DNA from: Oceanisphaera pacifica
GTDB lineage: Bacteria; Pseudomonadota; Gammaproteobacteria; Enterobacterales; Aeromonadaceae
Length of the DNA: 64,000 nt
Direction: 5' to 3'
Assembly: GCF_017498065.1 (NCBI RefSeq)
Contig: NZ_JAGDFX010000004.1
Location: 1 to 64,000 of the forward strand
Shown here: positions 5 to 54,333 of the stretch, one piece after another
How the letters are laid out: every line of letters begins with the position of its first letter
How positions within the stretch are numbered: the first letter of the stretch is position 1
Translations under genes and position numbers: made by a program
Notes under the pieces: generated by a model
Database searches by the model: none
What the model saw: the letters and a program-made list of their open reading frames with translations, nothing else
What the model was told of the DNA's origin: nothing

Positions 5-385
5 GGCGAACTCTCAATATATAAAGAGTGTTATCTGATCATATCCGCCAATAAAAAGAAAGATACTAGATTAAATTAATGACTGCTAGCTTGTTGAATT
101 AACGACTTTTTTCATGCTCTTGCCCTGTTTTAGACCTGTTCTCTATTTTTTAGCGGGTTTCGTGGATTTCGTTGCCAAGAACTTTCTTTTTTAAGACAAA
201 TCCATACTAGCCTTTTGCAACTAAACCCGCGAAATCCACGAAAAGATCAATATTAAGAGCGGAAATTTTAATGGTTAAGAGCAAACTTACATACCTGTAG
301 ACTGTTACCTGTTTTTACAGTAAAAACCTTTTTTTAGACCTGTTCTCTATTTTTTAGCGGGTTTCGTGGATTTCGTTGCGAATAT
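5..385. repeat. Intergenic repeat block with class A palindromic element
   Basis: About 380 bp without a gene. A class A element runs from about 215 to 380: the left arm TTGCAACTAAACCCGCG and the right arm GGATTTCGTTGC are imperfect inverted repeats. A second copy of the right arm lies at about 131-178, with TAGACCTGTTCTCTA followed by the same GGGTTTCGTGGATTTCG. The A+T-rich first 110 bases hold nothing I recognise. Confidence 0.75.
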
Positions 386-817
386 TTACTTAAGCTTTTG
401 TGACCAGAGTTTGCTGTTTTCGGCTATTAGTTGGTATACGTGTTGGAAGGCTTCTTCGCTTTTTTTGTAAGGGTCGGGTATTTCTTGGTTGTTGTTCCAT
501 TGCCCTAGTAAGAAGGTTTTGCCGCGGGCCTCGGGGGCTAGTTTGGTGATGCCTTCTTTGTGTTTGCTTTCCATTACTAATATTACATCGGCTTGGCGGC
601 AGAGCTCTTTGGTTAACTGGCGTGCTTTGTGGGTTGGGCACGTTAGGCCGTTTTGTTCTGCTACTTGTTTGGCGGTGGCGTCTGTGTCGTGATCGACTAA
701 CGCGCCTAAGCCTGCTGAGTGTACGGTTTTATGCGGCAAAGCCTGTTTTAGTAAAAACTCAGCGGTTGGGCTGCGACAGATATTGCCCACACAGACCACT
801 AAAATATTATTAAACAT
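386..817 (-). CDS. wzb: Low-molecular-weight protein-tyrosine phosphatase (Wzb/Etp)
   Basis: A 143-residue cytoplasmic phosphatase that in capsule systems dephosphorylates the tyrosine kinase Wzc/Etk and so controls polysaccharide polymerisation and export. The P-loop CVGNICRS has the catalytic Cys9 and Arg15, and the DPYKKS loop supplies the general acid Asp115; the length is normal for the family. It lies 347 bp downstream of wza on the same strand, with a class A repeat element between the two genes. The kinase gene expected next would lie beyond the left edge of the window. Confidence 0.93.
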   Translation of the reverse strand: MFNNILVVCVGNICRSPTAEFLLKQALPHKTVHSAGLGALVDHDTDATAKQVAEQNGLTCPTHKARQLTKELCRQADVILVMESKHKEGITKLAPEARGKTFLLGQWNNNQEIPDPYKKSEEAFQHVYQLIAENSKLWSQKLK

Positions 818-1164
818 TTTTAATCACCTTAGAGATTAAATAATTTTGCAACGAAACCCACGAAATCCACGAAAAGATCGAGATAAGAGCGAATTTTTTC
901 ATAGTAAGAGCAAAGGCTTTAAAGCTGTAAAGTGGACAGACTAAGATAAACCACTAAGGAGTAAAGATAGCTGGATGCCTGAAGCCGAAAGCTAAGCCAA
1001 AACACTGCGGTATTTTTATTTTCGGTTTTACTTCCTGCTTCTAGCTTATCGCTTCCAGCTATTTTTTAGGTCTTACCATTAAAAGTCACTTTTCGACCTT
1101 ATCTCATCTTAATTTTTCCGTGGGTTCCGTGGATTCCGTTGCGAAAGGGGTTGAACACTAGAAT
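818..1164. repeat. Class A palindromic element between wza and wzb
   Basis: The inverted arms run from about 846 (TTGCAACGAAACCCACG) to 1142 (GGATTCCGTTGCG). The centre holds the secondary palindrome CTGAAGCCGAAAGC ... GCTTCTAGCTTATCGC and the stretch CACTGCGGTATTTTTATTTTCGG, which recurs at about 11200, 15710, 39540 and 39840. The element sits inside what is normally one transcription unit, so it is probably transcribed. Confidence 0.75.
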
Positions 1165-2283
1165 CTACTCGACGAGGCGGGTGCCGGTGTATACGCCACT
1201 TAAGGTGGGTAGTAACTGACCTATTACGCGGTTCCAGCGGGCTACTGGGGCGGCGGTAACGTAGACAATGTCGCGCTCTTGTAATTTAAAACTGTCTGCT
1301 AACACCATAGCGGCCATGTTTTTGGCATTTAACTGATACACGTCTGCTATGCGGCCACTTTGTTCTGGGGCTTTGCGCATTACAAACACACCGGTGGCGT
1401 CTGCTGTTACTTGGCTCATGCCTTCGGCATCGGCCAGGGCTTCGGCTAGGGTTTTGCCATTGCGGCCCATGGGTAGCGTTTGTTGTTTGCCTACTTCGCC
1501 TAATACAAATACTTTGCTGTCGTCGTTGCGGTTAATGTTAATAACATCGTTTGGTTGCAACAAAATATTTTGGCTTACGTCGCCGTCTTTATATAAATCG
1601 CGTAGCGAGAAACGATAAGTTTGTGCACCTCGGTTTAACACTACAGTTTGCCAGTCGGCGTGCTCGGTAATACCACCGGCTTTGCTTACCGCATCTACCA
1701 GCGTTAACGGAATATTGGTAATAGGCTGGGTGCCTGGGCGTTCTACTTCACCGGTAACGTATACCCACTTAGAACGAAACGCGGCAATGGTTACATCCAC
1801 TTGCGGGCTTTCTACGTAACGGGCTAAGCGGCGGCTAATAAGATCGCGAATTTCACTGATTTTTAATCCTGCTACTTTCACGTTACCTATGTAGGGATAA
1901 AAAATGGTGCCGTCTGCGTGCACCCAGTTGCCTGCTTCTTCTGAACTGCGGTATTCACCCGCTGGGGTGGTCAGCTCTGGGTGATCCCATACGATAACGC
2001 TTAATACGTCACCTGGGCCTACTTTGTAGTCGTAGTCGGCAATTTGTTGGCGCAGTGCTTGGTCGTTTGCCGGTAGTTGCTCTGTATTGTTGGTTTGTGC
2101 TTGTACAGACGCCGCCGTGATGGGGTAAATATCAATAAGTTCACTTAAATCATCGTTTTGATCGTGATATTGGTCTACTACAGTGCCATAGCTATTAGAG
2201 AAATGACTACCTGGGATCACGGTGCAGCCGCTAAGCAGGGCTGTGCCAAAAAGAAGAGCGGAAAGATACTTTGCTTTATACAT
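1165..2283 (-). CDS. wza: Outer-membrane polysaccharide export lipoprotein Wza/GfcE
   Basis: A 372-residue homologue of Wza/GfcE, which forms the octameric outer-membrane pore for capsule or exopolysaccharide. The N-terminus is a lipoprotein signal with lipobox LSGC (Cys20). A Poly_export domain follows (YKVGPGDVLSVIVWDHPEL near residues 90-110), then SLBB repeats (VYVTGEVERPGTQPI and VFVLGEVGKQQTLPMG), and a C-terminal amphipathic segment that in Wza forms the membrane helix barrel. It is the first gene of the minus-strand export unit and is preceded by a JUMPstart/ops sequence. In E. coli the homologue gfcE is co-transcribed with gfcABCD; here the two halves are divergent. Confidence 0.95.
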   Translation of the reverse strand: MYKAKYLSALLFGTALLSGCTVIPGSHFSNSYGTVVDQYHDQNDDLSELIDIYPITAASVQAQTNNTEQLPANDQALRQQIADYDYKVGPGDVLSVIVWDHPELTTPAGEYRSSEEAGNWVHADGTIFYPYIGNVKVAGLKISEIRDLISRRLARYVESPQVDVTIAAFRSKWVYVTGEVERPGTQPITNIPLTLVDAVSKAGGITEHADWQTVVLNRGAQTYRFSLRDLYKDGDVSQNILLQPNDVININRNDDSKVFVLGEVGKQQTLPMGRNGKTLAEALADAEGMSQVTADATGVFVMRKAPEQSGRIADVYQLNAKNMAAMVLADSFKLQERDIVYVTAAPVARWNRVIGQLLPTLSGVYTGTRLVE

Positions 2284-2330
2284 GTATGAGTGTCTGCCAG
2301 GTTATTTATGCAAGATATATGCGAAAAAGG

Positions 2331-2367
2331 TACGCTACCGCCCCAAGGTTACAGCCCCTCGATGCTG
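2331..2367 (-). promoter_or_regulatory. JUMPstart element with ops core (RfaH recruitment)
   Basis: Read on the minus strand, the 5' UTR of wza contains CAGCATCGAGGGGCTG followed by GGGGCGGTAGCGTA. The core GGCGGTAGCGTA (2331-2342) differs from the classical ops core GGCGGTAGCGTG only in its last base, and the flanking bases follow the JUMPstart consensus with a 2 bp shorter spacing. It ends 48 nt before the wza start codon. By established knowledge, ops in the non-template strand pauses RNA polymerase and loads the antiterminator RfaH. No gene for RfaH is in the window. Confidence 0.85.
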
Positions 2368-2718
2368 ATTTAGCCTGCCTAATTTTGTGCTGTATTGGCC
2401 GCAACCCAGTGTCTTTTTTTTTCAAAATGCAATAAATGGGCGCGCTCTTTTAAGAGCGAGTAAGTATTATTACGCGGCATTCTAAAAATAGCGCTGCATA
2501 CTACCACAGTTTTTTGCTGAGTAAACTCCATGGCCCGTGTGAAAATTAACCGCTCGCATTTTGCAACGGTGAATAAGGCAAGCCCTGCGATAGGTGAATA
2601 AGCGAATAAGGTTAAAACTAAATGTTATATTATACGGCTTATTGGCAAAACTGACTTTTACGTCAACAAGTATCGACTCACTTGACGACTATTTCGCTTT
2701 ATCGCTTGGCTAATAACA

Positions 2719-2747
2719 TTGGTTTTTGCCGTAAAATACCTTATATT
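2719..2747 (+). promoter_or_regulatory. Sigma-70-type promoter for gfcA
   Basis: TTGGTT at 2719-2724 and TATATT at 2742-2747 are separated by exactly 17 bp, about 75 bp upstream of the gfcA start codon. The rest of the 538 bp divergent wza/gfcA spacer is A+T rich and free of the repeat modules seen elsewhere, which suggests a real regulatory region. Confidence 0.5.
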
Positions 2748-4608: not shown

Positions 4609-6761
4609 TGAAACCTATTTTTCATTATGCCGCCTTGGCTACCGCTATTAACTTAGTGTTGCATAGCACAGCTTATGCCGAACAAGCATTAACCCCTTTT
4701 GCTACTCAGCCGTCGCAATCTGACTTTGGTGGCGTGGGCTTAATTCAAATGCCTTCTGCCCGTATGAATAAAGAAGGCGAGTTTAGTGTTAACTATTTTG
4801 ATACTGACCAATATCGCCGTTATTCATTATCTTTGCAGTTATTTCCTTGGTTAGAAAGCACGGTGCGCTATGTGGATGTGCGCACCCGAAAATACAGCGA
4901 CAATCCCGATTTTAGTGGGGATCAAACCCTTAAAGATAAAGGGATTGATGCCAAGGTACGGTTATTAAAAGAAAGCCAATGGTTACCCGAGCTTAGTGTG
5001 GGTGCAAGAGACTTAGGTGGCACTGGTTTATTTGCTTCTGAGTTTGTGGCGGCCAATAAACGATTTGGGCCGCTGGATTTTACAGTGGGTATGGGTTGGG
5101 GTTATTTAGGTAGCCGCGATAATATTAGTAACCCTTTTTGTGAAGCATCGGACCGATTTTGTGATCGCCCCCAAGGCACGCTGGGCAGCGGTGGTAAGTT
5201 TGATGTAAATAAGATGTTTAGAGGCCCTGCCGCTTTATTTGGTGGTGTAGAGTACCAAACACCTTGGCAGCCGTTACGATTAAAGCTGGAATACGACAGT
5301 AACGACTATAAAAATGGCAATGGCAATGGCAAGCAAGAGCCCGCCTTGGGGCAAACAGTGGGTGGGTTACCCGTAGATGCCCCAGTTAACGTAGGCGCAG
5401 TGTACCGAGCTTTTGACTGGCTAGATGTGCACGCCAATTATCAGCGCGGTAATACCTTTGGCTTTGGGGTGACTATGCGTACCAACTTTAATGAGTTAAC
5501 CCCAAGCTGGAACGATGTCTCTCATCCTAATTATGATGCCAAGCAGCAGCCTGAAGCTGGCCAAGCTGATTGGGGGCGTTTGCAGGGTGACTTAGCCGAA
5601 AATGCTGGCTATAAACGCACTCGTATTTATCAAGATAACAGCACTTTAGTTGTGAGTGGTGAGCAAACAAAATACCGAGATAGAAGCGAAGCCCAAGCCC
5701 GAGCCGCGGTATTATTAGCAAATCAGGTGCCTGCTGATATTAAGCAAGTGCAGCTAATAGAGCGCAAAAAGAACCTAGACCTTAGCGCACAAGAGTTTGA
5801 TATGACCAAGCTGCGCTTGGCGGCAGATAATGCCTATATTGGTGCAGATGTTACCGATGCCATGACGGCGATAGAGCCAAAACAGTATGCAAGCGCCACA
5901 CCTCTGGCTGAGCATAAACAACGTGTTCGCTATGGTATTTCGCCGGTATTAAAGCAGTCTTTGGGTGGCCCTGAGTCGTTTTATATGTATCAGGTTGGCT
6001 TTAATGCCAATGCAGAAGCCGATATCAGTAAGCAATGGTTGGTGTCTGCGGGCCTTTATGTGAACTTGCTAGATAACTACGATAAGTGGGATGAAAACTA
6101 TAACGGCTACACAGATAACACCCCTGCTTTGCCTCAGGTGCGTACTCTTATTCGTAAGTATGTTAGTGATAACCCCGTTCGTTTAGATAATGCTCAGTTA
6201 ACATGGATGGATAGAGTAACTGACGATTGGTATGCCCAAGCCTATGGTGGCTATTTAGAAATGATGTATGCCGGTGTAGGTGGCGAGGTGTTATATCGCC
6301 CTGCAAACAGTAAATGGGCATTAGGGGCTAACCTTAACCATGTAAAACAGCGCGATTATGACTCTCAGTTTGGTATGTTGGACTATTCGGTAAACACCGG
6401 CCATGTGAGTGGTTATGTTGAAATGCCGTGGCTAGAAGATACCTTGTTGCAAGTGCATGCGGGCCAGTACTTGGCGGGCGATAAGGGGGCTACTTTTGAT
6501 ATTTCGCATAAGTTTGACAGCGGCGTGATTGCCGGTGCCTTTGCCACCTTTACCGATGTGTCGAGTGACGAATTTGGTGAGGGCAGTTTTAATAAGGGCT
6601 TTTACTTATCGATTCCGTTCGACATTATGACGGTGAAGCCAAGTACCAGCCGCGCCAGCATTAGCTGGGTACCATTAACCCGAGATGGCGGTCAAATGGT
6701 AGGTCGCAAGTACAGCTTGTATAACTTAACCGACGCCAGAGCGCCGTATTATGGGCTTTAA
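4608..6761 (+). CDS. gfcD: YjbH/GfcD family outer-membrane protein
   Basis: A 717-residue protein with a signal peptide ending near AYAEQ, followed by the family signature SDFGGVGLIQMPSARMNKEGEFSVNYF. The body has alternating hydrophobic and aromatic strands as expected for a beta-barrel of the YjbH family, which is needed for group 4 capsule or Yjb exopolysaccharide secretion. It is the last gene of the coupled gfcBCD set. Immediately after its stop begins a tract of AGCTTGAAGCTGG repeats with no spacer. Confidence 0.88.
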   Translation: MKPIFHYAALATAINLVLHSTAYAEQALTPFATQPSQSDFGGVGLIQMPSARMNKEGEFSVNYFDTDQYRRYSLSLQLFPWLESTVRYVDVRTRKYSDNPDFSGDQTLKDKGIDAKVRLLKESQWLPELSVGARDLGGTGLFASEFVAANKRFGPLDFTVGMGWGYLGSRDNISNPFCEASDRFCDRPQGTLGSGGKFDVNKMFRGPAALFGGVEYQTPWQPLRLKLEYDSNDYKNGNGNGKQEPALGQTVGGLPVDAPVNVGAVYRAFDWLDVHANYQRGNTFGFGVTMRTNFNELTPSWNDVSHPNYDAKQQPEAGQADWGRLQGDLAENAGYKRTRIYQDNSTLVVSGEQTKYRDRSEAQARAAVLLANQVPADIKQVQLIERKKNLDLSAQEFDMTKLRLAADNAYIGADVTDAMTAIEPKQYASATPLAEHKQRVRYGISPVLKQSLGGPESFYMYQVGFNANAEADISKQWLVSAGLYVNLLDNYDKWDENYNGYTDNTPALPQVRTLIRKYVSDNPVRLDNAQLTWMDRVTDDWYAQAYGGYLEMMYAGVGGEVLYRPANSKWALGANLNHVKQRDYDSQFGMLDYSVNTGHVSGYVEMPWLEDTLLQVHAGQYLAGDKGATFDISHKFDSGVIAGAFATFTDVSSDEFGEGSFNKGFYLSIPFDIMTVKPSTSRASISWVPLTRDGGQMVGRKYSLYNLTDARAPYYGL

Positions 6762-6764
6762 GTG

Positions 6765-6906
6765 AAAGCTTGAAGCTGGAAGCTTGAAGCTGGAAGCTTG
6801 AAGCTGGAAGCTGAAAGCTGAAAGCTGGAAGCTTGAAGCTGGAAGCTGGAAGCTGAAAGCTGGAAGCTTGAAGCTGGAAGCTGAAAGCTGAAAGCTGAAA
6901 GCTGAA
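6765..6906. repeat. AGCTGGAAGCTTGAAGC simple-sequence tract
   Basis: About 140 bp made of 7-mers AGCTTGA, AGCTGGA and AGCTGAA in changing order, so the phase is kept while the seventh base set varies. It begins four bases after the gfcD stop. All frames are open and encode repeats such as SFQL/SSFKLPA, which explains spurious long ORFs here. The same units recur at 7380-7400, 10805-10950, 30424-30502 and 45485-45520 and inside class A and B elements. Confidence 0.9.
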
Positions 6907-6909
6907 ACA

Positions 6910-6944: not shown

Positions 6945-6958
6945 TCGAGCTTCTGGCT

Positions 6959-8077: not shown

Positions 8078-8440
8078 TAAGTGCCTTCAATAACTGAGTG
8101 ATAAAATATTTTGCAACGGAATCCGCAGAAAGCACGGAAAAATAGGGATAAGATCTGAAAAGGCTAAAAGATAGCTGGAAGCGATAAGCTAGAAGCTGGA
8201 AGTAAAACCGAAAATAAAAATACCGCAGTGTTTTGGATTAGCTTTCGGCTTCAGGCATCCAGCTATCTTTACTCCTTACAGGTTTATCTTAGCTTGTCCA
8301 TTTTACAGCTTTAAAGCCTTTGCTCTTACTATAAAAAATTTCGCTCTTATGGTGATCTTTTCGTGGGTTTCGTGGATTTCGTGGATTTCGTTGCAAGTAT
8401 CTTTAGTCTTTTGTTTGTTAATTCAACATTGCCTTTAAAG
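8078..8440. repeat. Class A element between ung and tesB
   Basis: 363 bp. The arms run from about 8111 (TTGCAACGGAATCCGCAG) to 8396 (GTGGATTTCGTTGCAA), with AGCTGGAAGCGATAAGC and the complement of the 846-1142 centre inside. TGGATTTCG is duplicated near the right end. No coding sequence seen. Confidence 0.75.
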
Positions 8441-9313: not shown

Positions 9314-9842
9314 ATCATTCTCCCCTTTTCGTAAGGTTAAGGTAATGTTGAGTTAACTGACAAACACTCAAGACTAGGCCCTTTTGCCACGGAATACACG
9401 GAAGAACACGGAAAAATTAAGCTAACATAACAGCGAATAATCTTTAATGGTAAGAGCAAAGGCCATAAGGGCAATGTTGAATGTTGAATGTTGGATTAAC
9501 TGACAAACACTCAAGACTGGGCCCTTTTGCAACGAAATCCGCTAAACCCACGAAAAGATCACCATAAGAGCGAAAATTATCATAGTAAATGCTAAACACA
9601 CTGTTTTATAAGCTTTGTGTCTGCTCTTACCAAGAACAGTCTTTTTTCAGATCTTATCTCTATTTTTTAGCGGGTTTCGCGGGTTTCGTTGCAAGGTGTC
9701 TTAGTCTCTTGACCTTCATTCAACATTGCCATGTAGAAGTAAAGTGGACTGGCTGAGATAAACCCGTGAAGCGTGAGGGGGACGACACTCAACCAGTGCA
9801 ATATTTTACTTCCAGCTTCCGGCTTCTAGCTTCCAGCTCTTC
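9314..9842. repeat. Two nested class A elements between tesB and yciI
   Basis: 529 bp. A partial left arm at about 9383-9460 (TTGCCACGGAATACACGG) is followed by a complete element at about 9527-9694. The latter belongs to a variant whose centre reads TAAATGCTAAACACACTG ... TTTGTGTCTGCTCTTACC, shared with 28045-28210, 28255-28421 and 34699-34880. ATGTTGAATGTTG outer arms precede it. No gene seen. Confidence 0.75.
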
Positions 9843-10741: not shown

Positions 10742-12078
10742 TACTAGCAACCCTAAAAAACAATATGCTGTAGTCTACCACAACCCACAGTTATCAAGGC
10801 AATGCTGAATGGCTGAAAGCTCGAAGCTCGAAGCTGGAAGCTGAAAGCTGAAAGCTGAATCTGAAAGCTGAAAGCTGAAAGCTCGAAGCTCGAAGCTGGA
10901 AGCTGGAAGCTGGAAGCTGGAAGCTGAAAGCTGAAAGCTGAAAGCGGTAAGCTAAGCAAAAACACAGAGGCATTTTTGTTTTTACTTCCGGCTTCTAGCT
11001 TCAAGCTTATTACTATCTGTTAACTGGATTGCCGCGTCGCTGCGCTCCTCGCAATGACCCAAGGGCAATGTTGAATTAACTGACAAACACTCAACACTAA
11101 GCCCTTTTGCAACGAAATCCGCTAAACCCACGAAAAGATCAACATAACAGCGAAAAATTTTAATGGTAAGAGCAAGATCACCGATAGCTGGAAGCTAAGC
11201 CAAAACACTGCGGTACTTTTATTTTCGGTTTTACTTCCAACTTCTAGCTTATCGCTTCCAGCTATCTTTTAGCCTTTTCAGATCTGCTCCCTATTTTTCC
11301 GTGGGTTTCGTGGATTCCGTGGCAAAAGATCTTTAGACGTGCCGCTGCGCGCCACCAGCCAGCTGAAGCGGCCTCTACCTGGGCGGTGCAATGACCGATG
11401 TTGTCATTGCGAGGAACGAAGCAATCCATCCCAAACAAAGCTATACGTCTAACGCTGACCGCCTTACGTTAAAAACAAAACGGTTTTGGCTGTTTGTACA
11501 GCGCTCAGCGTAAAGCGTAGAGAAAGCCGGAAGCTGAGAGCTGGAAGCGGTAAGCTAAGCAAAAACACAGAGGCATTTTTGTTTTTACTTCCGGCTTCTA
11601 GCTTCAAGCTTATTACTATCTGTTAACTGGATTGCCGCGTCGCTGCGCTCCTCGCAATGACCCAAGGGCAATGTTGGATTAACTGACAAATGCTCAACAC
11701 TAAGCCCTTTTGCAACGAAATCCGCTAAACCCACGAAAAGATCACCATAACAGCGAAAAGTCTTAATGGTAAGAGCAAGATCACCGATAGCTGGAAGTCT
11801 GAAGCCGAAAGCTAATATTTTCGGTTTTACTTCCAGCTTCTAGCTTATCGCTTCCAGCTATTTTTTAGCTCTTACCAATAAAAACCTCTTTTAGATGTTA
11901 TCCCTACTTTTTAGCGGATTTAGTGGGTTTCGTTGCCAGTTGTCTTATCTTGATCTGTTGGCCTTTGAATTCATTCAACATTATTTTAAAGATTTATTGG
12001 CTTAATTTGGGTTTATGGTCAAGGCTTGATGATGTCCTACTGGACAATTTTTAAACACTTTCATCAAGGAGTGATGAT
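10742..12078. repeat. Large mosaic repeat region upstream of the comEA-like gene
   Basis: 1.3 kb without a gene. In order: an AGCTGGAAGC simple tract (10805-10950); a class B end at about 11024-11060; a class A element (about 11107-11324); a full class B element (about 11401-11663); a second class A element (about 11709-11937); then about 100 bp of unique sequence up to comEA. Bases 10943-11240 and 11547-11810 are near-identical direct repeats. Bases 11275-11880 have an inverted near-identical partner at 19068-19676. Confidence 0.85.
11275..11880 (+). repeat. Left copy of a ~600 bp inverted repeat
   Basis: The reverse complement of this stretch matches 19068-19676 almost base for base. Shared features in the same order are CAATGACCGATGTTGTCATT, the GCCACCAGCCAGCTGAAGCG segment, the AACGTAAGGCGG arm, the AAAACACAGAGGCATTTTTG stretch and the GGTTTTACTTCCAGCTTC core. 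By eye I count only a handful of differences, one a 6-base indel in an A/C-rich run. The copies face each other across about 7.2 kb. Confidence 0.9.
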
Positions 12079-15173: not shown

Positions 15174-15890
15174 AGGCTATTAACAGCAATGTTGAATGAA
15201 GGTCAAAAGATAAACCCCTTTTGCCACGGAATACACGGAAGAACACGGAAAAATAGAGATAAGATCTGAAAAGAGCTTTCTTGCTAGGTTAGAACTTACT
15301 AACAAGGTCACTTAAGAGCTTAGTCTTAAGTGTTTGTCTATTAATTCAACACTGCCCTTGAGTCATTGCGAGGAGTGCAGCGACGCGGCAATCTATTGCA
15401 CAGACAGCGATACGCTTTACGCTGAGCGCGGTACGAACAACCAAAATCGGTGTGTTCTGCTCTTGTCATTGGTAGGGGCGAATTTATTCGCACAAAAACC
15501 ATGGCACACCTTAAAATCGGTCGAATGAATTCGACCCTACACAGGGTTGGATTGTTTAACGTAAGGCGGTCAGCGTTAGACGTATAGCCTTGGTTTGGGA
15601 TGGATTGCTTCGTACCTCGCAATGACCCAGATGTTGTCATTGCGAGGAGCGTAGCGACGCGGCAATCTAGGTAACAGATAGCAATAAGCTTGAAGCTGGA
15701 AGTAAAACCGAAAATAAAAGTACCGCAGTGTTTTGGCTTCAGACTTCCAGCTATCGGTGATCTTGCTCTTACTATTAAGATTTTTCGCTCTTATGTTGAT
15801 CTTTTAGTGGGTTTCGCGGATTTCGTTGCAAAAAGGCTTAGTGTTGAGTGCTTGTCTGTTAATTCAACATTCAAAATTTAACATTCAACA
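15174..15890. repeat. Class A halves interrupted by a class B/C composite
   Basis: About 715 bp. A class A left arm at about 15220-15280 (TTGCCACGGAATACACGG) and a right arm at about 15700-15831 flank a class B element at 15355-15670 (GTCATTGCGAGGAGTGCAGC ... CGTACCTCGCAATGACCC). Inside that lies a class C element at 15473-15541 (GTAGGGGCGAATTTATTCGC ... GGTCGAATGAATTCGACCC). Three levels of nesting can be read here. No gene seen. Confidence 0.8.
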
Positions 15891-18785: not shown

Positions 18786-19067
18786 ATTTTGAATTTTGAG
18801 TGTTGAATGAAGTTCAAAAGACTAAGACACCTTGCAACGAAACCCGCGAAATCCGCTAAAAAATAGGGATAAGTTCTGAAAAGAGCTTTTGATTGTAAGA
18901 GCTAAAAAATAGCGCCCAGAAGACAGAGACAATGTTGAATTGTGAATGTTGAATGTTGAGTTAAGGTCAAAAGAGCAAGATAAAACACTTGGCAACGCTT
19001 CTTTGTAACAAGAGGCGCTAAACCCGCTAAAAAATAGGGATAAGTTCTGAAAAGATCTTTTGATTGT

Positions 19068-19676
19068 AAGGGCTAAAAAATAGCTGGAAGCGATAAGCTA
19101 GAAGCTGGAAGTAAAACCGAAAATATTAGCTTTCGGCTTCAGACTTCCAGCTATCGGTGATCTTGCTCTTACCATTAAGACTTTTCGCTGTTATGTTGAT
19201 CTTTTCGTGGGTTTAGCGGATTCCGTGGCAAAAGGGCCTAGTCTTGAGTGTTTGTCAGTTAATCCAACATTGCCCTTGGGTCATTGCGAGGAGCGCAGCG
19301 ACGCGGCAATCCAGTTAACAGATAGTAATAAGCTTGAAGCTAGAAGCCGGAAGTAAAAACAAAAACAAAATGCCTCTGTGTTTTTGCTTAGCTTACCGCT
19401 TCCAGCTCTCAGCTTCCGGCTTTCTCTACGCTTGACGCTGAGCGCTGTACAAACAGCCAAAACCGTTTTGTTATTAACGTAAGGCGGTCAGCGTTAGACG
19501 TATAGCTTTGTTTGGGATGGATTGCTTCGTACCTCGCAATGACAACATCGGTCATTGCACCGCCCAGGTAGAGGCCGCTTCAGCTGGCTGGTGGCGCGCA
19601 GCGGCACGTCTAAAGATCTTTTGCCACGGAATCCACGAAACCCACGGAAAAATAGGGATAAGATCTGAAAAAGACT
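19068..19676 (-). repeat. Right copy of the ~600 bp inverted repeat
   Basis: Inverted near-identical partner of 11275-11880, about 7.2 kb away. It contains a class A right half, a complete class B element, the CGCCCAGGTAGAGGCCGC stretch and the left arm of the class A copy at 19621. The segment between the copies carries the comEA-like gene, galU, dnaT, dnaC and the HD-GYP gene. Confidence 0.9.
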
Positions 19677-19849
19677 GTTCATGGTAAGAGCTAAAAGATA
19701 GCTGGAAGCGATAAGCTAGAAGCTGGAAGTAAAACCGAAAATATTAGCTTTCGGCTTCAGACTTCCAGCTATCGGTGATCTTGCTCTTACTATTAAGATT
19801 TTTCGCTCTTATGGTGATCTTTTCGTGGGTTTAGCGGATTTCGTTGCAA
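19621..19849. repeat. Full-length class A element (type copy 1)
   Basis: 229 bp from TTGCCACGGAATCCACG to GCGGATTTCGTTGCAA. It is almost identical to 21299-21526 and 29302-29530. The two halves form a long imperfect palindrome, with an inner palindrome AGCTGGAAGCGATAAGC ... GGCTTCAGACTTCCAGC. Confidence 0.9.
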
Positions 19850-20202
19850 AAGGGCCTAGTCTTGAGTGTTTGTCAGTTAATCCAACATTCAAAATTTAGC
19901 ATCCAACATTACCCTTATGGGCTTTGCTCTTACCATTAAGATTTTTCGAGCTTATGTTAGCTTAATTTTTCCGTGGGTTTCGTGGATTCCGTGGCAAAGG
20001 GGGTCTTAGTGTTGAATGTTTGTCTGTTAATTCAACATTCAAAATTTAACATTCAACATTACTTTAAGCTCTTCAACATTGCTTTAAGCCCTTCCATCCA
20101 TTATTTTTTAACTGGATAAATACTGAGTTAGTCGATAAAGTAAATACGCTAAACTTACTTTTAAAAGTAACCCCGTTTACTACTTACTTATCAGGAGGCG
20201 CT

Positions 20203-21246: not shown

Positions 21247-21625
21247 TTTAAAGGTGAAGGGGACGAGATGGAAAACAAACACTCAACACTAAGCCCTTTT
21301 GCAACGGAATCCACTGAATCCGCGGAAAAATAGAGATAAGATCTGAAAAGGGCTTTTGATTGTAAGAGCTAAAAGATAGCTGGAAGCGATAAGCTAAAAG
21401 CTGGAAGTAAAACCGAAAATATTAGCTTTCGGCTTCAGACTTCCAGCTATTGGTGATCTTGCTCTTACTATTAAGATTTTTCGCTCTTATGGTGATCTTT
21501 TCGTGAGTTTAGCGGATTTCGTTGCAGGTATCTTTAGTCTTTTGTTTGTCTGTTAATTCAACATTGTCCTGCAGTCCACCTCACCCCTCACGGGTTTATC
21601 TCATCCCGTCCTCTTTACCATCTCT
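21247..21625. repeat. Class A element (type copy 2) between yqjK and the yfaZ-like gene
   Basis: A 228 bp class A copy occupies 21299-21526, preceded by the CAAACACTCAACACTAAGCCC arm. After it comes TTGTTTGTCTGTTAATTCAAC. The last 70 bases contain CCTCACCCCTCACGGGTT, shared with the reverse complement near 9770. The two flanking genes converge here. Confidence 0.85.
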
Positions 21626-22258: not shown

Positions 22259-23453
22259 CGTGTAATACCTTTATAAAGAGAAAAACGGCCATAAAGCCGA
22301 TATTGATAAATTAAACGAGAAGGATTTCAGCACAAAAGCCACAACGATGCCAACTCTTTACCCCCAACCCTACCCAATTTGGGCTTGTGATAAAGCAGCG
22401 AAACACATAAGAGCAATGTTGAATTAACAGGCAAACACTCAATACTAATACCTTTTGCAACACTTCTTTGTAACAAGAGGCGCTAAATCCGCTAAAAAAT
22501 AGGGATAAGATCTGAAAAGGACTTTCTTATTGTAAGGGATAAAAGATAGCTTGCAGCAATAAGCTAGAAGCCAAAAGTAAAGTAATTGACCGGCTGAGTG
22601 TCGTCCCCCTTACCTCTTCACTAAATACACTTTTATGTGCGTAATAATGTGAGGCGCGGTATCAAACGCTTAGTGCCGCTTCGCGCCAGGCGCTGCTCTT
22701 GGGTCATTGCGAGGAGCGCAGCGACGCGGCAATCCATTGAACAGACAGCCATACGCTTTACGCTGAGCGCGTTACGACACCGACAACCCGTGTATTCTTT
22801 AACGTAAGGCGTACAGTGTTAGGCATAGCGCTGTCTGTTAAATGGATTGCTTCGTACCTCGCAATGACAGGCTGAGGACTTTGCAGTGGTAGGCCGCGGC
22901 CGATAGCGCGTCTTTATACCAATATTTTGCTGCGCAAATTCAGCCGGCTGAAGCGGCTTCTACCAGTAAAAGTAAAGTGGGCAGCAGGGCAATGTTGAAG
23001 GGCTTAAGGGCAATGTTAAACTTTGAATGTTGAATTAACAGGCAAACACTCAAGACTAAGACCCCCTTTGCCACGGAATCCACGAAAAGATCAAGATAAG
23101 AGCGACATTTTTATAGTAAGAGCAAACACATGCTTGTAGGCCTTGTGTCTGCTCTTATAATCAGAGAATCTTTTAGATGTTATCCCTATTTTTTAGCGGA
23201 TTTAGTGGGTTTCGTTGCCAAGTGTTTTATCTTGCTCTTTTGACCTTCATTCAACATTCATAATTCAACATTGCCTCTGGTATCTTGGGCGCTATCTTTT
23301 AGCCCTTACCAATAAAAATCCCTTTCAGATCTTATCTCTATTTTTCCGTGGGTTTCGTGGATTCCGTGGCAAAGTCTCTTGTCGTGAGCTCTTGAACTTC
23401 ATTCAACATTCAACACTCAAAATTCAACATTGCTCTTAATAAAGCATTGCTCT
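22259..23453. repeat. 1.2 kb mosaic repeat region between the yfaZ-like gene and gcvH
   Basis: After about 120 bp of unique promoter-like sequence come a class A left half with the CTTCTTTGTAACAAGAGG insert (about 22448-22590), a class B element (about 22697-22870), a class A copy (about 23068-23219) and a class A right arm (about 23300-23372) with ATTCAACATTCAACACTC arms. Also present are GCCGGCTGAAGCGGCTTC and CGCGGCCGATAGCGCG, other short palindromes. No gene seen. Confidence 0.8.
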
Positions 23454-27685: not shown

Positions 27686-27770
27686 TTCTTTACTCCTCAC
27701 AGACTCCATTTGTCTGTATAAATCCTGTTACAATTTACAATTAGTGTGTGTTAATTGAATAGGTCATGAT

Positions 27771-27998: not shown

Positions 27999-28649
27999 AT
28001 GTTGAATGTTGAATGTTGAATGAAGGTCAAGAGACTAAGACACCTTGCAACGAAACCCGCGAAAACCGCTAAAAAATAGAGATAAGATCTGAAAGAGCTT
28101 TTGATTGTAAGAGCAGACACAAAGCTTATAAGACAGTGTGTTTAGCATTTACTATGATAATTTTCGCTCTTATGGTGATCTTTTCGTGGGTTTAGCGGGT
28201 TTCGTTGCAAAAGGGCTTAGTGTTGAGTGTTTAAAGTCAAAAGATTAAGACTCTTTGCAACGGAATCCACTGAAAACACGGAAAAATAGGGATCAGATCT
28301 GAAAAAGACTGTTCATGGTAAGAGCAGACACAAAGCTTATAAAACAGTGTGTTTAGCATTTACTATGATAATTTTCGCTCTTATGGTGATCTTTTCGTGG
28401 GGTTAGCGGATTTCGTTGCAAAAGGGCCTAGTCTTGAGTGTTTGTCAGTTAATTCAACATACAAAATCTAGCATTCAACATTGCCCTTATGGGTTTTGCT
28501 CTTACCATTAAGATTTTTCGCTCTTATGTTGATCTTTTCGTGGGTTTCGTGGATTCCGTGGCAAAAAGGTTTAGTGTTGAGTGTTTGTCAATTAATTCAA
28601 CATTCAAAATTTAACATTCAACATTGCCCTTAAAGTGGAGGTTTGGTTA
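27999..28649. repeat. Tandem class A elements between the VF530 gene and fau
   Basis: Two class A copies of the GTGTGTTTAGCATTTACT variant lie head to tail (about 28045-28210 and 28255-28421), followed by a right arm near 28500-28563. Outer arms are TTTTGAATGTTGAATG at 27990-28020 and TTCAACATTCAAAATTTAAC at 28600-28625. The right outer arm ends about 25 bp before the fau start codon, so any fau promoter must lie in or beyond the repeat. Confidence 0.85.
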
Positions 28650-29228: not shown

Positions 29229-29560
29229 AAGCAATGCTATTAAAAGCAATGTTGAATTTTGAGTGTTGAATGTTGAGTGAAGTTCAAAAGATCAAGACTC
29301 TTTGCCACGGAATCCACTGAATCCACGGAAAAATAGGGATAAGATCTGAAAAGAGCTTTTGATTGTAAGAGCTAAAAGATAGCTGGAAGCGATAAGCTAA
29401 AAGCTGGAAGTAAAACCGAAAATATTAGCTTTCGGCTTCAGACTTCCAGCTATCGGTGATCTTGCTCTTACTATTAAGATTTTTCGCTCTTATGGTGATC
29501 TTTTCGTGGGTTTAGCGGATTTCGTTGCAAAAAAGCTTAGTATTGAGTGTTTGCTTTAGC
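29229..29560. repeat. Class A element (type copy 3) between fau and rpiA
   Basis: The 229 bp copy at 29302-29530 closely matches 21299-21526 and 19621-19849. It is preceded by the outer arm AGCAATGTTGAATTTTGAG, which starts some 20 bp after the fau stop, and followed by TTAGTATTGAGTGTTTGC. Confidence 0.9.
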
Positions 29561-30302: not shown

Positions 30303-30963
30303 CGCTATTAAAGGCAATGTTGAATTGTGAATGTTGAGTGAAGGTCAAAAGATCAAGATTAAAGACTTTTTGCCACGGAATACACGGAAGAACACGGAAA
30401 AATAGGGATAAGATCTGAAAAATAGCTGGAAGCGATAAGCTGGAAGCGATAAGCTGGAAGCGATAAGCTGGAAGCGATAAGCTGGAAGCGATAAGCTGGA
30501 AGCCTGGAGTAAAAGTACCGCAGTGTTTTGGCTTAGCTATCGGTGATCTTGCTCTTACTATAAAAATTTCGCTCTTATGGTGATCTTTTCGTGGGTTTAG
30601 CGGGTTTCGTGGCAAAAGGGCTGAGTGTTGAGTGTTTGTCAGTTAATTCAACATTCAAAATTTAACATCCAACATTGCCCTTACGGCCTTTGCTCTTACT
30701 ATTAAGATTTTTCGCTCTTATGTTGATCTTTTCGTGGGTTTAGCGGGTTTCGTTGCAAAAGGGCTGAGTATTGAGTGTTTGTCAGTTAATCCAACATTCA
30801 AAATTTAGCATTCAACATTGCCCTTACGGCCTTTGCTCTTACCATTAATAATTCTCGTTCTTATGTAAGCTTAATTTTTCCGTGGGTTTCGTGGATTCCG
30901 TGGCAAAGGGCTTAGTATTGAGTGTTTGTCAGTTAATTCAACATCCAACATTGCCCTTACGGG
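30303..30963. repeat. Class A elements between rpiA and modC
   Basis: A class A copy (about 30369-30614) contains a 14 bp tandem array in its centre. After it come two further right arms with GTTAATTCAACATTCAAAAT outer arms (about 30620-30790 and 30850-30960). The region joins two convergent genes and has no ordinary terminator. Confidence 0.8.
30424..30502. repeat. 14 bp tandem array (AGCTGGAAGCGATA)x5.6
   Basis: Five perfect head-to-tail copies of AGCTGGAAGCGATA plus a partial sixth, inside the class A copy at 30369-30614. Other class A copies have one such unit at the same place, so this is a local expansion. Confidence 0.92.
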
Positions 30964-34629: not shown

Positions 34630-35242
34630 GGGTTTGAAGGGCAGCTTTGAATAGCAATTTTGGATGTTGAGTTAAGGTCAAAAGATTAAGATAAGCCCTT
34701 TTGCAACGAAATCCGCTACTCTCTATTTAAGATAAGCACGAAAAGATCACCATAAGAGCGAAAATTATCATAGTAAATGCTAAACACACTGTCTTATAAG
34801 TTTTGTGTCTGCTCTTACCATGAACAGTCTTTTTCAGATCTGATCCCTATTTTTCCGTGGATTCAGTGGATTCCGTGGCAAGGAGTCTTAATCTTTTGAT
34901 CTTAAACACTCAACACTAAGCCCTTTTGCCACGGAAGAACACGGAAAAATTAAGCTAACATAAGAGCCAAAAATCTTAATAGTAAGAGCAAGATCACCGA
35001 TAGCTGGAAGTCTGAAGCCGAAAGCTAATATTTTCGGTTTTACTTCCAGCTTCTAGCTTATCGCTTCCAGCTATTTTTCAGATCTTATCTCTATTTTCCG
35101 TGGATTCAGCGGATTCCGTTGCAAAAAGTCTTATTTTCATCTGTTGTTTTTTGAATTAACAGACAAACAAAAACCCCCGAGCTGTTGGGCTCGGGGGTTT
35201 CTTTAGCTGGGCGCCGAGCGCCGGGCACTCGGCGCTGCTCTA
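34630..35242. repeat. Two class A elements between modE and acnA
   Basis: 613 bp between convergent genes. One copy (about 34699-34880) has a short foreign insert ACTCTCTATTTAAGATAAG in its left arm; a second copy (about 34924-35124) follows. Outer arms GATGTTGAGTTAAGG and AAACACTCAACACTAAGCCC are present. The acnA terminator is at the right end. Confidence 0.8.
35170..35201 (-). terminator. acnA terminator
   Basis: AACCCCCGAGC-TGTTGG-GCTCGGGGGTT is a strong stem with A and T tracts outside; placed 40 bp after the acnA stop. Confidence 0.85.
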
Positions 35243-39177: not shown

Positions 39178-39911
39178 TGATTGCTCCTTTTGAACTAGCA
39201 GGAGAACGACACTTATAAACTCTGCTCCCTACGCTCGCTTTAATCAGTTTTCTTTATCTCACCCCCTTTACACCTCACCCTTTACAAACTTTATCCCTAT
39301 TGTTCCGTGGGTTTAGTGTTATTCCGTGGCAAAAATGTCTGACAAACAAAAGACTAAAGATATTTGCAACGAAATCCGCTAAACCCACGAAAAGATCAAC
39401 ATAACAGCGAAGAACCTCTAATGGTAAGAGCAAAGGCTTTAAAGCTGTTAAAGCGGCTTCTACCAGTAAGGTAAAGCGGAGTGGCTGAGATAAACCTGTG
39501 AGGTAAAGATAGCTGGAAGCCTGAAGCCGAAAGCTAAGCCAAAACACTGCGGTACTTTTATTTTCGGTTTTACTTCCGGCTTCTAGCTTCAAGCTTATTG
39601 CTGTCTGTTAAATGGATTGCCGCGTCGCTGCGCTCCTCGCAATGACGGCGAAGAGCAGCGCTCGGCACCAAGCTTAACCCCGGTCATTGCGAGGTACGAA
39701 GCAATCCATTTCAAACCAAGGCGCTACGTCTAACGCTGACCGCTTTACGTTAAAAGAAAACACCGGTTTTGTTTTTGTACCGCGCTCGGCGTAAAGCGTA
39801 TAGAAAGCTTAAAGCTGGAAGCCGAAAGCTAAGCCAAAACACTGCGGTACTTTTATTTTCGGTTTTACTTCCGGCTTCTAGCTTCAAGCTTATTACTGTT
39901 TGTTAAATGGG
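39178..39911. repeat. Class A and class B fragments between rimK and kdsA
   Basis: 734 bp between convergent genes. A class A right arm is at about 39285-39332, a class A left half from about 39363, then the AGCCTGAAGCCGAAAGC core (39510-39600), a class B end pair (about 39612-39710), and a class B half whose right part runs straight into the kdsA stop at 39912 (TTGTTAAATGGG). No gene seen. Confidence 0.75.
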
Positions 39912-51748: not shown

Positions 51749-52765
51749 GTGTCTCGCGTTCCGCTCCCTTTTATAAGCAGCTGTACGCCTTACGCTGACC
51801 GCTGTACGAAAAAGCAAAACCGGTGTTTCTTTAACGTAAGGCGGTCAGCGTTAGACGTATAGTCTTGGTTTGGAATGGATTACTGCGCTCGCAATGACCA
51901 AAGGGGCGCTCTGACTTTTCGTAGGGGCGAATTTATTCGCACAAAGAAGGCCAGCGCCGAGCACCAAGCTAAAAGAGAAAGCCCCAGCCAATCAGTCTGG
52001 GCTGTTTTCTTTGACGTAAGGCGGTCAGCGTAAAACGTACCGCGCTCTTTTGGTCGAATGAATTCGACCCTACACGCGGTTGGATTTTTTAACATAAGGC
52101 GGTCAGCGTTAGACGTAGCGCTTTATTTAGCCGTCATTGCGAGGAACGCAGCGACGCGGCAATCCATTTAACAGACAGCAATAAGCTTGAAGCTAGAAGC
52201 CGGAAGTAAAACCGAAAATAAAAGTACCGCTGTGTTTTGGCTTAGCTTTCGGCTTCCAGCTTTAAGCTTTCTATACGCTTTACGCTGACCGCGGTACGAA
52301 AAAACAAAACCGGTGTTTTCTTTTAACGTAAAGCGGTCAGCGTTAGACGTAGCGCCCTGGTTTGAAATGGATTGCTTCGTACCTCGCAATGACCGGGGTT
52401 AAGCTTGGCGCCGGGCGCTTGGCGCTGCTCTTCGCCGTCATTGCGAGGAGTGCAGCGACGCGGCAATCCATCGCACAGACAGCCATACGCTTTACGCCGA
52501 GCGCGGTACAAAAACAAAACCGGTGTTTCTTTAACGTAAGGCGGTCAGCGTTAGACGTATCGCTTTGGTTTAGAATGGATTGCCACGCTGCGCTCGCAAT
52601 GACCGGGGTTAAGCTTGGCGCTCGGTGCTGTTTTAGTCATTGCGAGGAGTGCAGCGACGCGGCAATCCATTCTACAAGGGGCTGGGGATTGGTAAATAGG
52701 GATTAGTCACTGATTAACCACCAATCCCTAATCACCAGTCACTGCTTTAATGAAATCCACAAAGC
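51749..52765. repeat. About 1 kb of class B, C and D elements before the tRNA cluster
   Basis: A class B half (51776-51895), a class C pair of ends at 51921-51940 and 52053-52073 with another class B arm between them, a class B element at about 52133-52394 that is the inverted counterpart of 39680-39900, another at about 52437-52605, a half at 52635-52672 and a class D palindrome at 52676-52745. AACGTAAGGCGGTCAGCG recurs at least four times. No gene seen. Confidence 0.82.
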
Positions 52766-52798: not shown

Positions 52799-52873
52799 TG
52801 GCTGGGGTACCAGGATTCGAACCTGGGAATGACGAGATCAAAACCCGTTGCCTTACCGCTTGGCGATACCCCA
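52799..52873 (-). tRNA. tRNA-Gln (TTG)
   Basis: 75 nt including encoded CCA. Acceptor TGGGGTA pairs with TACCCCA; anticodon loop TTTTGAT gives TTG; T-loop GGTTCGAATCC. Identical to the copies at 53167 and 53346. Confidence 0.97.
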
Positions 52874-52912
52874 ATTTTTACTCGACTAAGATAACATTTA
52901 TTATCTTAAATA

Positions 52913-52997
52913 TGGTGCGGGAGGCGAGACTTGAACTCGCACACCTTGCGGCGCTAGAACCTAAATCTAGTGCGTCTACCAATTTCGCCACTCCCGC
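52913..52997 (-). tRNA. tRNA-Leu (TAG)
   Basis: 85 nt with CCA. Begins GCGGGAGTGGCGAAATTGG, long variable arm, anticodon TAG in ATTTAGG, T-loop AGTTCAAGTCT. Class II architecture as for leucine. Confidence 0.97.
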
Positions 52998-53004
52998 TAA
53001 AAAG

Positions 53005-53081
53005 TGGTGGCTATGGCGGGATTCGAACCTGCGACCCCATCATTATGAGTGATGTGCTCTAACCAGCTGAGCTACATAGCC
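53005..53081 (-). tRNA. tRNA-Met (CAT), elongator
   Basis: 77 nt with CCA. Begins GGCTATGTAGCTCAGCTGG, anticodon loop CTCATAA gives CAT. The sequence follows E. coli metT (elongator type), with no initiator-type acceptor mismatch. Confidence 0.96.
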
Positions 53082-53166
53082 ACATATGCAAACCAATTTA
53101 ATTACATCAGCTTACATTGCAAATTTCTTACTTCTTAGAACTCGCTTTACAGCCAATTCTTTAATA

Positions 53167-53241
53167 TGGCTGGGGTACCAGGATTCGAACCTGGGAATGA
53201 CGAGATCAAAACCCGTTGCCTTACCGCTTGGCGATACCCCA
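53167..53241 (-). tRNA. tRNA-Gln (TTG), second copy
   Basis: Base-identical to the copy at 52799-52873, CCA encoded. Followed upstream by 104 bp of spacer to the next tRNA-Gln. Confidence 0.97.
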
Positions 53242-53345
53242 ATTTTCTATGGTTGATACTTATATCATATTATCAACACATTACAAGTGTCATAGAATTT
53301 TATGTTACTTGTAATTCTTACAGCTTATTGCTGTAAGCTTTTTTT

Positions 53346-53420
53346 TGGCTGGGGTACCAGGATTCGAACCTGGGAATGACGAGATCAAAACCCGTTGCCT
53401 TACCGCTTGGCGATACCCCA
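53346..53420 (-). tRNA. tRNA-Gln (TTG), third copy
   Basis: Same 75 nt sequence as the other two tRNA-Gln genes, including the anticodon TTG and encoded CCA. The TTTTTT before its 3' end on the plus strand belongs to the spacer. Confidence 0.97.
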
Positions 53421-53467
53421 ATTGTACTTTACTACTAAGGCAAGCAATAGCTGCATACCTTTAAATG

Positions 53468-53552
53468 TGGTGCGGGAGGCGAGACTTGAACTCGCACACC
53501 TTGCGGCGCTAGAACCTAAATCTAGTGCGTCTACCAATTTCGCCACTCCCGC
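53468..53552 (-). tRNA. tRNA-Leu (TAG), second copy
   Basis: Identical in sequence to the tRNA-Leu at 52913-52997; class II with long variable arm. Confidence 0.97.
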
Positions 53553-53557
53553 AGAAA

Positions 53558-53634
53558 TGGTGGCTATGGCGGGATTCGAACCTGCGACCCCATCATTATG
53601 AGTGATGTGCTCTAACCAGCTGAGCTACATAGCC
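53558..53634 (-). tRNA. tRNA-Met (CAT), second copy; first in the operon
   Basis: Identical to the copy at 53005-53081. It is the 5'-most gene of the cluster, about 75 bp downstream of a strong promoter. Confidence 0.96.
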
Positions 53635-53709
53635 ACTGTGTCAATAACTGTTAAATACTGCTTTAACCAACGTTTCGCTTTGCTTGCGTTGCGTTACTGA
53701 ACGGTGCGC

Positions 53710-53738
53710 ATTATGCGCATCAGGCCGAAAATGGTCAA
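53710..53738 (-). promoter_or_regulatory. tRNA operon promoter with GC-rich discriminator
   Basis: On the minus strand, TTGACC (53738-53733), 17 bp spacer and CATAAT (53715-53710), then GCGCACCG. A GC-rich discriminator after the -10 box is the usual mark of stringently controlled stable-RNA promoters. Confidence 0.8.
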
Positions 53739-53759
53739 CCCCTTTTTTAATAAAAACAC

Positions 53760-54333
53760 ACTCTTTTAAGTCGCCTGCTGATAAAGTAGTCGCTTAGGTG
53801 GAGAAATGAGCTAAAAGCACCCCTTCGGAGCTGTAAGCCGTCCACAAAATAAAGCTATACACCTAACGCTGTACGCTTTACGTTAAAGAAAACATTGGTT
53901 TTGTTTTCGTACCGCGCTCGGCGTAAAGCGTATAGAAAGCCGGAGGCTGAGAGCTGGAAGCTATAAGCTAGACAAAACACTGCAGCATTTTTATTTTTGG
54001 TTTTACTTCCGGCTTCTAGCTTCAAGCTTATTACTGTCTGTTATGGATTGCCGCGTCGCTTCGCTCCTCGCAATGACGGCGAAATAAAGCGCTACGCCTA
54101 ACGCTGTACGCTTTACGTTAAAGAAAACACCGGTTTGTTTTTTGCGTACCGCGCTCAGCGTAAAGCGTATAGAAAGCCGGAGGCTGAGAGCTGGAAGCTA
54201 TAAGCTAGACAAAACACTGCAGCATTTTTATTTTTGGTTTTACTTCCGGCTTCAAGCTTCAAGCTTATTGCTGCCTGTTATGGATTACCGCGTCGCGGTA
54301 CTCCTCGCAATGACGGCGAAAAACGCGGTCTCT
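53760..54333. repeat. Tandem class B elements upstream of the tRNA operon
   Basis: Two direct class B copies of about 235 bp each (53850-54087 and 54087-54320) share CCTAACGCTGTACGCTTTAC, AAAGCGTATAGAAAGCCGGA, CACTGCAGCATTTTTATTTT and the end CTCCTCGCAATGACGGCGAA. No gene seen. Confidence 0.85.

Follow-up and report, generated by a model that had tools for sequence, protein, structure and literature searches.

The intergenic spacers of the 64,000-nucleotide stretch of Oceanisphaera pacifica DNA analyzed here (the window) repeatedly hold a palindromic sequence that we call class A, which raises the question of what these repeats are and how they came to lie between so many genes. A preliminary description, made from the sequence alone, compared them in logic to MITEs or BIMEs and proposed recent spread or gene conversion.

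Architecture and inventory of class A

Class A elements are short hairpin-like repeats with an exchangeable middle, sited between genes. When complete, a unit forms an imperfect hairpin: an alpha arm, the left type, faces an arm of a different, right type (beta or gamma), and the loop can contain other repeats. The ends read TTTTGC[CA]ACGGAA.. (about 20 nt of end sequence), and in the mirrored ends conservation extends ~20 nt outside TTTTGC, where the consensus has a run like ACTAAAACCTAAAAC and the GTAG head is absent. The commonest form of core 1 (AGCTGGAAGC..GCTTCCAGCT) is 91 nt long, core 2 (AGACACAAAGCTTATAAGACAGTGTGTTTA) is 30 nt long, and the outer arms are AATGTTGAAT. From TTTTGC to GCAAAA, class A measures 140 to 388 nt, with a median of 187 nt (50 pairs drawn from the window and from fetched stretches of four genomes). 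In form class A matches a MITE, being short and non-coding with terminal inverted repeats. The copies on both strands, the TTTTGC[CA]ACG.. ends, both "second shells", the two cores and the outer AATGTTGAAT arms of the preliminary description were recovered, but the second shells proved to be two arm types, nearly always one each per element.

Arms are paired by type. Alpha faces beta or gamma in 46 of 53 pairs, compared with 26.6 for random pairing of the same arms, and 46 heterotypic pairs were never reached in 20,000 such random pairings. When both arms are typed at ≥0.6, 37 of 38 pairs are heterotypic. The exceptions are five alpha+alpha and two beta+gamma pairs, with weak typing in all except one. 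Folded as single-stranded DNA, two of three elements are far more stable than shuffled sequences (z of -6.3 and -7.6), but the third is no better than shuffles (z of +0.6). Arms of one element complement each other no better than permuted arms, and perhaps even less well.

Using an arm profile (E<1e-3), we called 45 class A arms at positions 116 to 39431 of the window, of which 13 stand alone as halves and the others make up 16 facing pairs:

116..382: lone alpha-like arm 116-178 (minus strand) and paired element 213-382, with beta 213-282 (plus) and alpha 315-382 (minus), both weakly typed; core 32 nt
844..1146: paired element, beta-like 844-911 (plus) and gamma 1069-1146 (minus); one of the two beta+gamma pairs among the 53
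8109..8384, plus: paired alpha/beta element, core 160 nt; ung-tesB spacer, occupied in other species too
9382..9694: lone gamma arm 9382-9457 (plus) and paired element 9525-9694 (core 30 nt)
11067..11938: composite of elements 11105-11327 and 11708-11938, with ~380 bp of other repeats between
15219..15285, plus: lone alpha arm
15765..15833, minus: lone beta arm
18832..18902, plus: lone alpha arm
19002..19233, plus: paired element, core 91 nt
19619..19851, plus: paired element, type copy, core 91 nt
19926..19998, minus: lone gamma arm
21297..21526, plus: paired element, type copy, core 91 nt
22467..22538, plus: lone alpha arm
23067..23373: paired element 23067-23221 and lone alpha arm 23302-23373 (minus)
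28045..28566: paired elements 28045-28212 and 28254-28423 and lone beta arm 28498-28566 (minus); 6S RNA-fau spacer
29301..29532, plus: paired element, type copy; fau-rpiA spacer
30368..30907: paired element 30368-30617 and lone arms 30692-30760 (minus) and 30835-30907 (minus), spacing ~143 nt
34699..35126: paired elements 34699-34881 and 34924-35126
39282..39431: two lone arms back to back, 39282-39334 (minus) and 39363-39431 (plus)

The family had been described as spanning positions 5 to 54333, but beyond 39.4 kb we found only a 21-nt class A end fragment at position 45578 (E=0.03) and, at 49 to 54 kb, only repeats of a separate AGCTTCC core type (families D9 and D12). The three type copies are close rather than "almost identical," as two of them are each 94% identical to the copy at 19613 to 19872; the copy at 29301 matches that copy at E=2e-110, which is beyond chance.

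None of the 45 arms lies within the sequences that we took as genes (34 ORFs and the 6S gene, 70% of window positions 1 to 40000), a result that depends on this choice of genes: the mechanical ORFs at 27764 to 28120, 30292 to 30615 and 39275 to 39592, which were left out of it, do overlap arms. Arm-bearing spacers are co-directional, convergent and divergent. As a check for lagging-strand bias, we counted by hand 34 of the at least 150 arms of the genome G005, and found 7 plus/10 minus and 8 plus/9 minus in the two chromosome halves (origin assumed at base 1), a count that is weak because the arm type is not known.

Distribution and orthologous sites

Among 23 genomes of the genus, in each of which up to 150 places were scored, arms were found in seven and none in the other 16. 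The genome that contains the window has at least 150, five others have at least 150, 149, 111, 24 and 13, and the seventh has one weak match (5.9e-5). The six genomes with at least 13 arms form one split with a support of 99, which shows that, across the genomes searched, class A is confined to a single clade. An exact pattern scan with the alpha shell gave no match in a collection of genome contigs, from which records near the window may be absent, and the plasmid collection gave no match. Another multi-genome search is a weak negative, with 17 places scored per genome and the window's own genome as the sole arm-bearing positive control listed.

Two sister species, with blocks 87 to 92% identical, offer 13 comparable sites, of which 4 are common to both species, 8 are private to one and 1 is rearranged. 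At 5 or more of the 8 private sites the other species is not empty but carries a different sequence, which in many cases consists of other repeats; in two cases its spacer is short (65 nt and about 121 nt). A class A site in the genome G014 corresponds to a 65-nt spacer in G005. The paired element between fau and rpiA is present in its own genome only; G005 has one different arm there, and no arm was called at this locus in 21 of the remaining 22 genomes of the genus. This argues against the case in which the same elements would stand at all orthologous positions as ancient fixed sequences. Presence/absence polymorphism of class A was found at the level compared, that is, between species.

Some class A sites are nevertheless old, namely the four common to the sister species and the ung-tesB spacer, in which arms were called by profile in three species and a related hairpin was seen by eye in a fourth. 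The ung-tesB interior differs among three of the four occupants' lineages, and a three-way alignment of the spacer is uninformative because the interiors are unrelated. Comparison of empty with filled sites, as the preliminary description had suggested, revealed neither a target duplication nor a clean point of insertion. In 50 pairs, whose exact ends are uncertain, the mean longest direct repeat is 4.96 nt versus 4.83 nt when permuted, and direct repeats of at least 7 nt occur in 3 pairs versus 4.1 expected.

Spread, recombination and the search for a mobilizing enzyme

All four combinations occur for outer shell with inner arm, for inner arm with core and for outer shell with core, and therefore class A copies recombine. 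Positions 11067 to 11934 align in inverted orientation with 19007 to 19889 (893 columns, 92% identity), so that the composite is present twice. Seventeen of the 22 beta arms scoring ≥0.7 are in the window, 3 are in C37, 2 are in C16, and none are in the other stretches fetched from the same genome. Alpha-arm identity drops with distance in the window (r of -0.17; 32 of 2000 permutations as low), and a distance dependence of beta arms is not clear (r of -0.15; 158 of 2000 permutations).

Based on these observations, we favor, at a probability of roughly 0.6, the reading that class A is a non-coding, non-autonomous, lineage-specific MITE- or BOX-like repeat that spread between genes and was diversified by ectopic recombination. 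The private sites, the 92% identical composite copy and the module shuffling support the MITE- or BIME-like logic and the spread or gene conversion that had been proposed earlier. Against this reading weigh the lack of target duplication in the 50 pairs, the failure of a limited search to find an autonomous parent, the private sites that are filled with other sequence in the other species, the seven pairs that break the alpha-with-beta-or-gamma rule, the 13 halves among the 45 window arms, the weakness of the distance dependence and the fold that is no better than shuffles. Class A would have arisen in one lineage and then spread into intergenic spacers, probably inserted by an enzyme acting in trans on two different ends. 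Copies have then recombined, presumably through ectopic gene conversion, and traded modules and cores as well as entire composites, and the clustering of beta arms points to a burst in which the beta form multiplied locally, in the region of the window. We tentatively suggest that the arms may serve as recurring homology borders and the hairpins as recombination platforms, by which spacer contents such as other repeats and whole composites would be swapped as cassettes from one intergenic site to another.

It is possible, if rather unlikely, that class A itself never transposes and that old palindromes were duplicated or replaced via recombination, template switching and slippage, with the hairpins as break or switch sites. 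The copying of the composite together with its passengers, the halves at 143-nt spacing, the shuffled modules and replaced spacers, the lack of target duplication in the 50 pairs, the weak distance dependence and the old common sites are all consistent with this. Against it stand the pairing rule of left-type and right-type arms, the arm counts of 150 or more in several genomes, and elements where relatives' spacers are short (the G014 site and fau-rpiA). That class A is instead a conserved functional RNA or terminator under selection is highly improbable: two folds are far stabler than shuffles, but the third is not, arms of the same element show no excess complementarity, arm-bearing spacers have every orientation, the fau-rpiA element is absent from the orthologous site, and Rfam at the gathering score matched only tRNA, 6S and JUMPstart in the window.

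We also consider it improbable that class A consists of REP or BIME elements moved by a RAYT (Y1 HuH) transposase. The repeats are palindromic, intergenic and numerous, a Y1_Tnp match is present in 18 of the 23 genus genomes, and in G011 (L206) an IS200-like gene has one class A arm in its vicinity. In contrast, the flanks of six RAYT-type genes from three arm-bearing genomes (one in G000, three in G005 and two in G014) have GTAG-type repeats by eye and no called class A arm, so the proposed RAYT link fails for the genes examined. Furthermore, arms occur in G017 and G022, which lack a Y1_Tnp match, and such a match occurs in 13 of the 16 genomes without arms. Class A units are also much longer than REPs and lack the GTAG or GTGG head beside a short hairpin that characterizes REPIN/RAYT systems. 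A limited search for an autonomous parent found none; three stretches with arms 1 to 5 kb apart (L166, L169 and L183) contain ORFs that are host-like by eye, with no transposase, and the one ORF scanned is Abi_2.

Relation to known repeats and significance

The comparisons with BOX, ERIC, YPAL and Correia elements are by published description. Pneumococcal BOX elements are reported to have terminal inverted repeats and target duplications, and their middle consists of tandem boxB modules (PMC3049150). Like class A, they are composite, with two different end modules, a variable middle and lone modules, and are nearly confined to close relatives; unlike BOX, class A has no duplication that we could see, and its middle may be other repeat families. 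ERIC, YPAL and Correia elements are also small palindromic intergenic repeats, but differ in the target duplications listed for these MITEs; YPAL targets reportedly span or adjoin dyad symmetry, and Correia elements occur with or without an internal segment (PMC2229807). REP, BIME and REPIN sequences with RAYT are likewise dispersed intergenic palindromes in mosaics, but class A has no GT[AG]G head, has longer units and is absent at the RAYT flanks examined (PMC2817692, PMC6006769). Small variable segments between strains are intergenic, differ in close genomes and are in some cases palindromic; they are described as a within-species phenomenon, whereas our comparison is between species and is tied to one repeat family (PMC2884548). 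A likeness to integron attC sites was considered and dropped.

A literature search, with most subscription journals outside its coverage, found no paper on class A repeats, and the matches listed in a text search with class A sequence strings look unrelated by title. We take class A to be a new family within a general type of repeat that is already known, set apart from BOX, ERIC, YPAL and Correia by their descriptions. Because two close sister species carry it and other relatives lack it, it is a natural system for studying how palindromic repeats of bacteria spread, how they exchange their cores and how they rewrite spacers, and it raises the question of whether a fixed asymmetry of left and right arms marks a mobilizing enzyme. 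If the arms do act as recombination platforms, repeat-bearing spacers would be rewritten between species while their flanks are still ~87 to 92% identical.

Arm types and their pairing

A profile of the arms, started with four seeds and refined by iteration, identified 45 of them in the window at E<1e-3, 32 in 16 facing pairs and 13 single. None of the 45 lies inside an accepted gene (34 ORFs plus the 6S gene, together 70% of positions 1 to 40000); three smaller mechanical ORFs that overlap arms were excluded from this set. The last arm stops at 39431. The range up to 54333 given in the preliminary description for this palindromic family (class A) is supported by arms as far as 39431; its 49- to 54-kb part is of the AGCTTCC core type. 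This core is an independent family and is wider than the class A arms. Element DNA was matched in 19 of 80 genomes, all of the same genus, and in 13 of these 19, among the matches listed, only the core part (query about 75 to 158) was matched.

The arm alignment, which took in 44 of the 45 window arms, has a common TTTTGC[CA]ACG end and, in most arms, an inner GTAAGAGC, while the segment between them varies.

Middle segments of the three arm types in the arm alignment
Alpha arm: ATAGGGATAAGATCTGAAAA
Beta arm: GATCACCATAAGAGCGAAAA
Gamma arm: TTAAGCTAACATAAGAGCG, in other copies TTAAGATGAGATAAGATCGAC

We typed the arms of 53 pairs from the window and from fetched stretches of five genomes (41 from the O. 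pacifica genome, G000; 6 from G014 and 4 from G005, two species that are sisters of each other; 1 each from G017 and G011). When arms are typed by best score with no floor, alpha faces beta or gamma in 46 pairs, alpha faces alpha in 5, and beta faces gamma in 2. When these arms are paired at random, the mean is 26.6 alpha-beta/gamma pairs, and 46 occurred in 0 of 20,000 trials. At a both-arm score of ≥0.6 the combination accounts for 37 of 38 pairs and at ≥0.7 for 27 of 27. The 46 pairs typed without a floor are evenly divided in orientation (23 versus 23). Gamma is the partner of alpha in all 9 such pairs from G005, G014, and G017, and beta arms of G000 scoring ≥0.7 are confined, in the stretches examined, to the window and contigs C37 and C16; beta thus seems to have been derived locally.

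The conserved sequence reaches about 20 nt beyond TTTTGC; past this point, similarity is at background in G005 and in G000 stretches other than the window, and nearly so in G014. Within the window it extends further owing to the local outer shell AATGTTGAAT. Over the outer 40 nt, arms of the same G000 element are slightly less complementary than permuted pairs (15.5 versus 16.7, with 15 of 4,000 permutations as low; 73 of 4,000 with 34 nt), and gamma pairs of all genomes alone gave no clear effect (564 of 4,000). This small effect may reflect a loss of perfect palindromes.

Exchange of modules between copies

Outer shells of alpha arms in the window
GGAATCC type: arms at 19619, 28254, 34811, 29301, and 21297
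GAAACCC type: arms at 9623 and 28045

Each of these shells is found with both inner segments, GACTGTTC and GCTTTTGATTG; each inner segment is found with both the 30-nt and the 91-nt core; and both shells are found with both cores (11868 is an example of GAAACCC with the 91-nt core). The module variants differ at several positions, and all four combinations of three module pairs occur in one window, which points to recombination between class A copies. Positions 11067 to 11934 and 19007 to 19889 are inverted copies with 92% identity over 893 columns, each consisting of two class A elements with about 380 bp of other repeats in between; identity is highest in the middle part.

Several other features were observed.
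27502 to 28635: a pair of class A elements plus a single half, situated between the 6S RNA gene and fau
6730 to 6954 and 10829 to 10990: arrays of AAGCTGA/AAGCTGG-like units with a 14-nt period (D1)
15556 to 52591: nine copies of another repeat family, TTAACGTAAGGCGGTCAGCG.. (D17), five of them within 51831 to 52591
52799 to 53634: a tRNA Gln-Leu-Met block in two copies, 90% identical over 300 columns
Contig C16 of G000 (stretch L169, 1216 to 1989): an Abi-like gene (Abi_2; Pfam PF07751, E=2.2e-46) between class A arms

Distribution and orthologous sites

The window is positions 1 to 64000 of contig C32 in the 3.1-Mb draft genome of G000 (37 contigs). In this genome, R1, a sequence-only arm model built from window arms, finds at least 150 arms. 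A hand count of the 150 listed places 45 in C32:1-40000, 36 in C37, and 69 elsewhere; thus, 81 of the best 150 fall in about 182 kb, a clustering that is favored by the origin of R1 in the window. C32, at the start of the window, and C37 (L161, C37:1-4800) share the core type GGTAACAGTCTACAGGTATGTA in the class A arrays with which both begin, and may therefore adjoin each other.

Among 23 genus genomes, R1 finds at least 150 arms each in G000 and G005, 149 in G014, 111 in G011, 24 in G017, 13 in G022, and 1 in G015, and no arm in the other 16. A four-protein tree, in which some genomes are represented by two proteins only, has one split (support, 99) that comprises exactly G000, G005, G011, G014, G017, and G022. 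We take this arm-bearing clade to be Oceanisphaera, which is placed in the Aeromonadaceae. In an rpiA-fau tree, G008 and G016 are at zero branch length from the named loci of Oceanimonas baumannii and Zobellella taiwanensis. Across 295 genomes of the order (best 17 places per genome), there were three weak single matches outside the genus (3e-4 to 7e-4), which are probably due to chance. Palindromic interspersed repeats with exchangeable modules are a known kind, as described for BOX (PMC3049150), ERIC and YPAL (PMC2229807), and BIMEs (PMC2817692, PMC6006769). Rfam gave no match for the window part of the class A family, and a literature search found no publication on it.

The fau-rpiA spacer holds a complete element in the window. 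Of the remaining 22 genus genomes, only G005 has an arm called there (E≤0.01), a single one of a different sequence; in the 21 without a call, the spacer between match ends measures 50 to 127 nt in 14 and 196 to 441 nt in 7. We found tesB in 21 of the 23 genus genomes; ung adjoins it in 18. The ung-tesB spacer has arms at matching places in G000, G005, and G014; in G017 a similar hairpin is visible by eye, for which the profile made no call, and no arm was called in the other 17 genomes. The interiors are unlike: G000 has a AGCTGGAAGC core, the loop of G005 and G014 is short, and G017 has other repeats. The rpiA (L128) and tesB (L238) genes of G005 each have an in-frame stop, with rpiA in two pieces; these may be sequencing errors.

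G005 and G014 were compared on fetched stretches (mean block identity, 87 to 92%), counting only sites with flanking synteny and omitting six clusters without clear synteny. Four of the 13 syntenic sites are common, 8 are private (5 in G005 and 3 in G014, two adjacent ones being separable in only one of two comparisons), and 1 is occupied in both but rearranged. At 5 or more of the 8 private sites the spacer of the other species is a different sequence, often with other repeats; at 2 it is short.

Mode of spread

The proposal that a REP-associated Y1 transposase (RAYT) mobilizes the family was not borne out: the six RAYT-type genes whose flanks were examined have GTAG-type repeats there and no class A arm. 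Y1_Tnp domain matches occur in 18 of the 23 genus genomes and are absent from G017 and G022, which have arms. An arm lies near one of two IS200-like genes in G011, and none lies near that of G000. One RAYT-type gene of G000 (L007, contig C2) is flanked on both sides by GTAGGGTCGAATTCATTCGACC-like repeats. We found no target duplication in 50 pairs and, in a limited search, no mobilizing enzyme for class A.

The pairing of two arm types, together with the clade-wide spread, argues for a unit that has a left and a right end and was moved as such. Recombination among class A copies is shown, and it may be the main present way in which the family changes.
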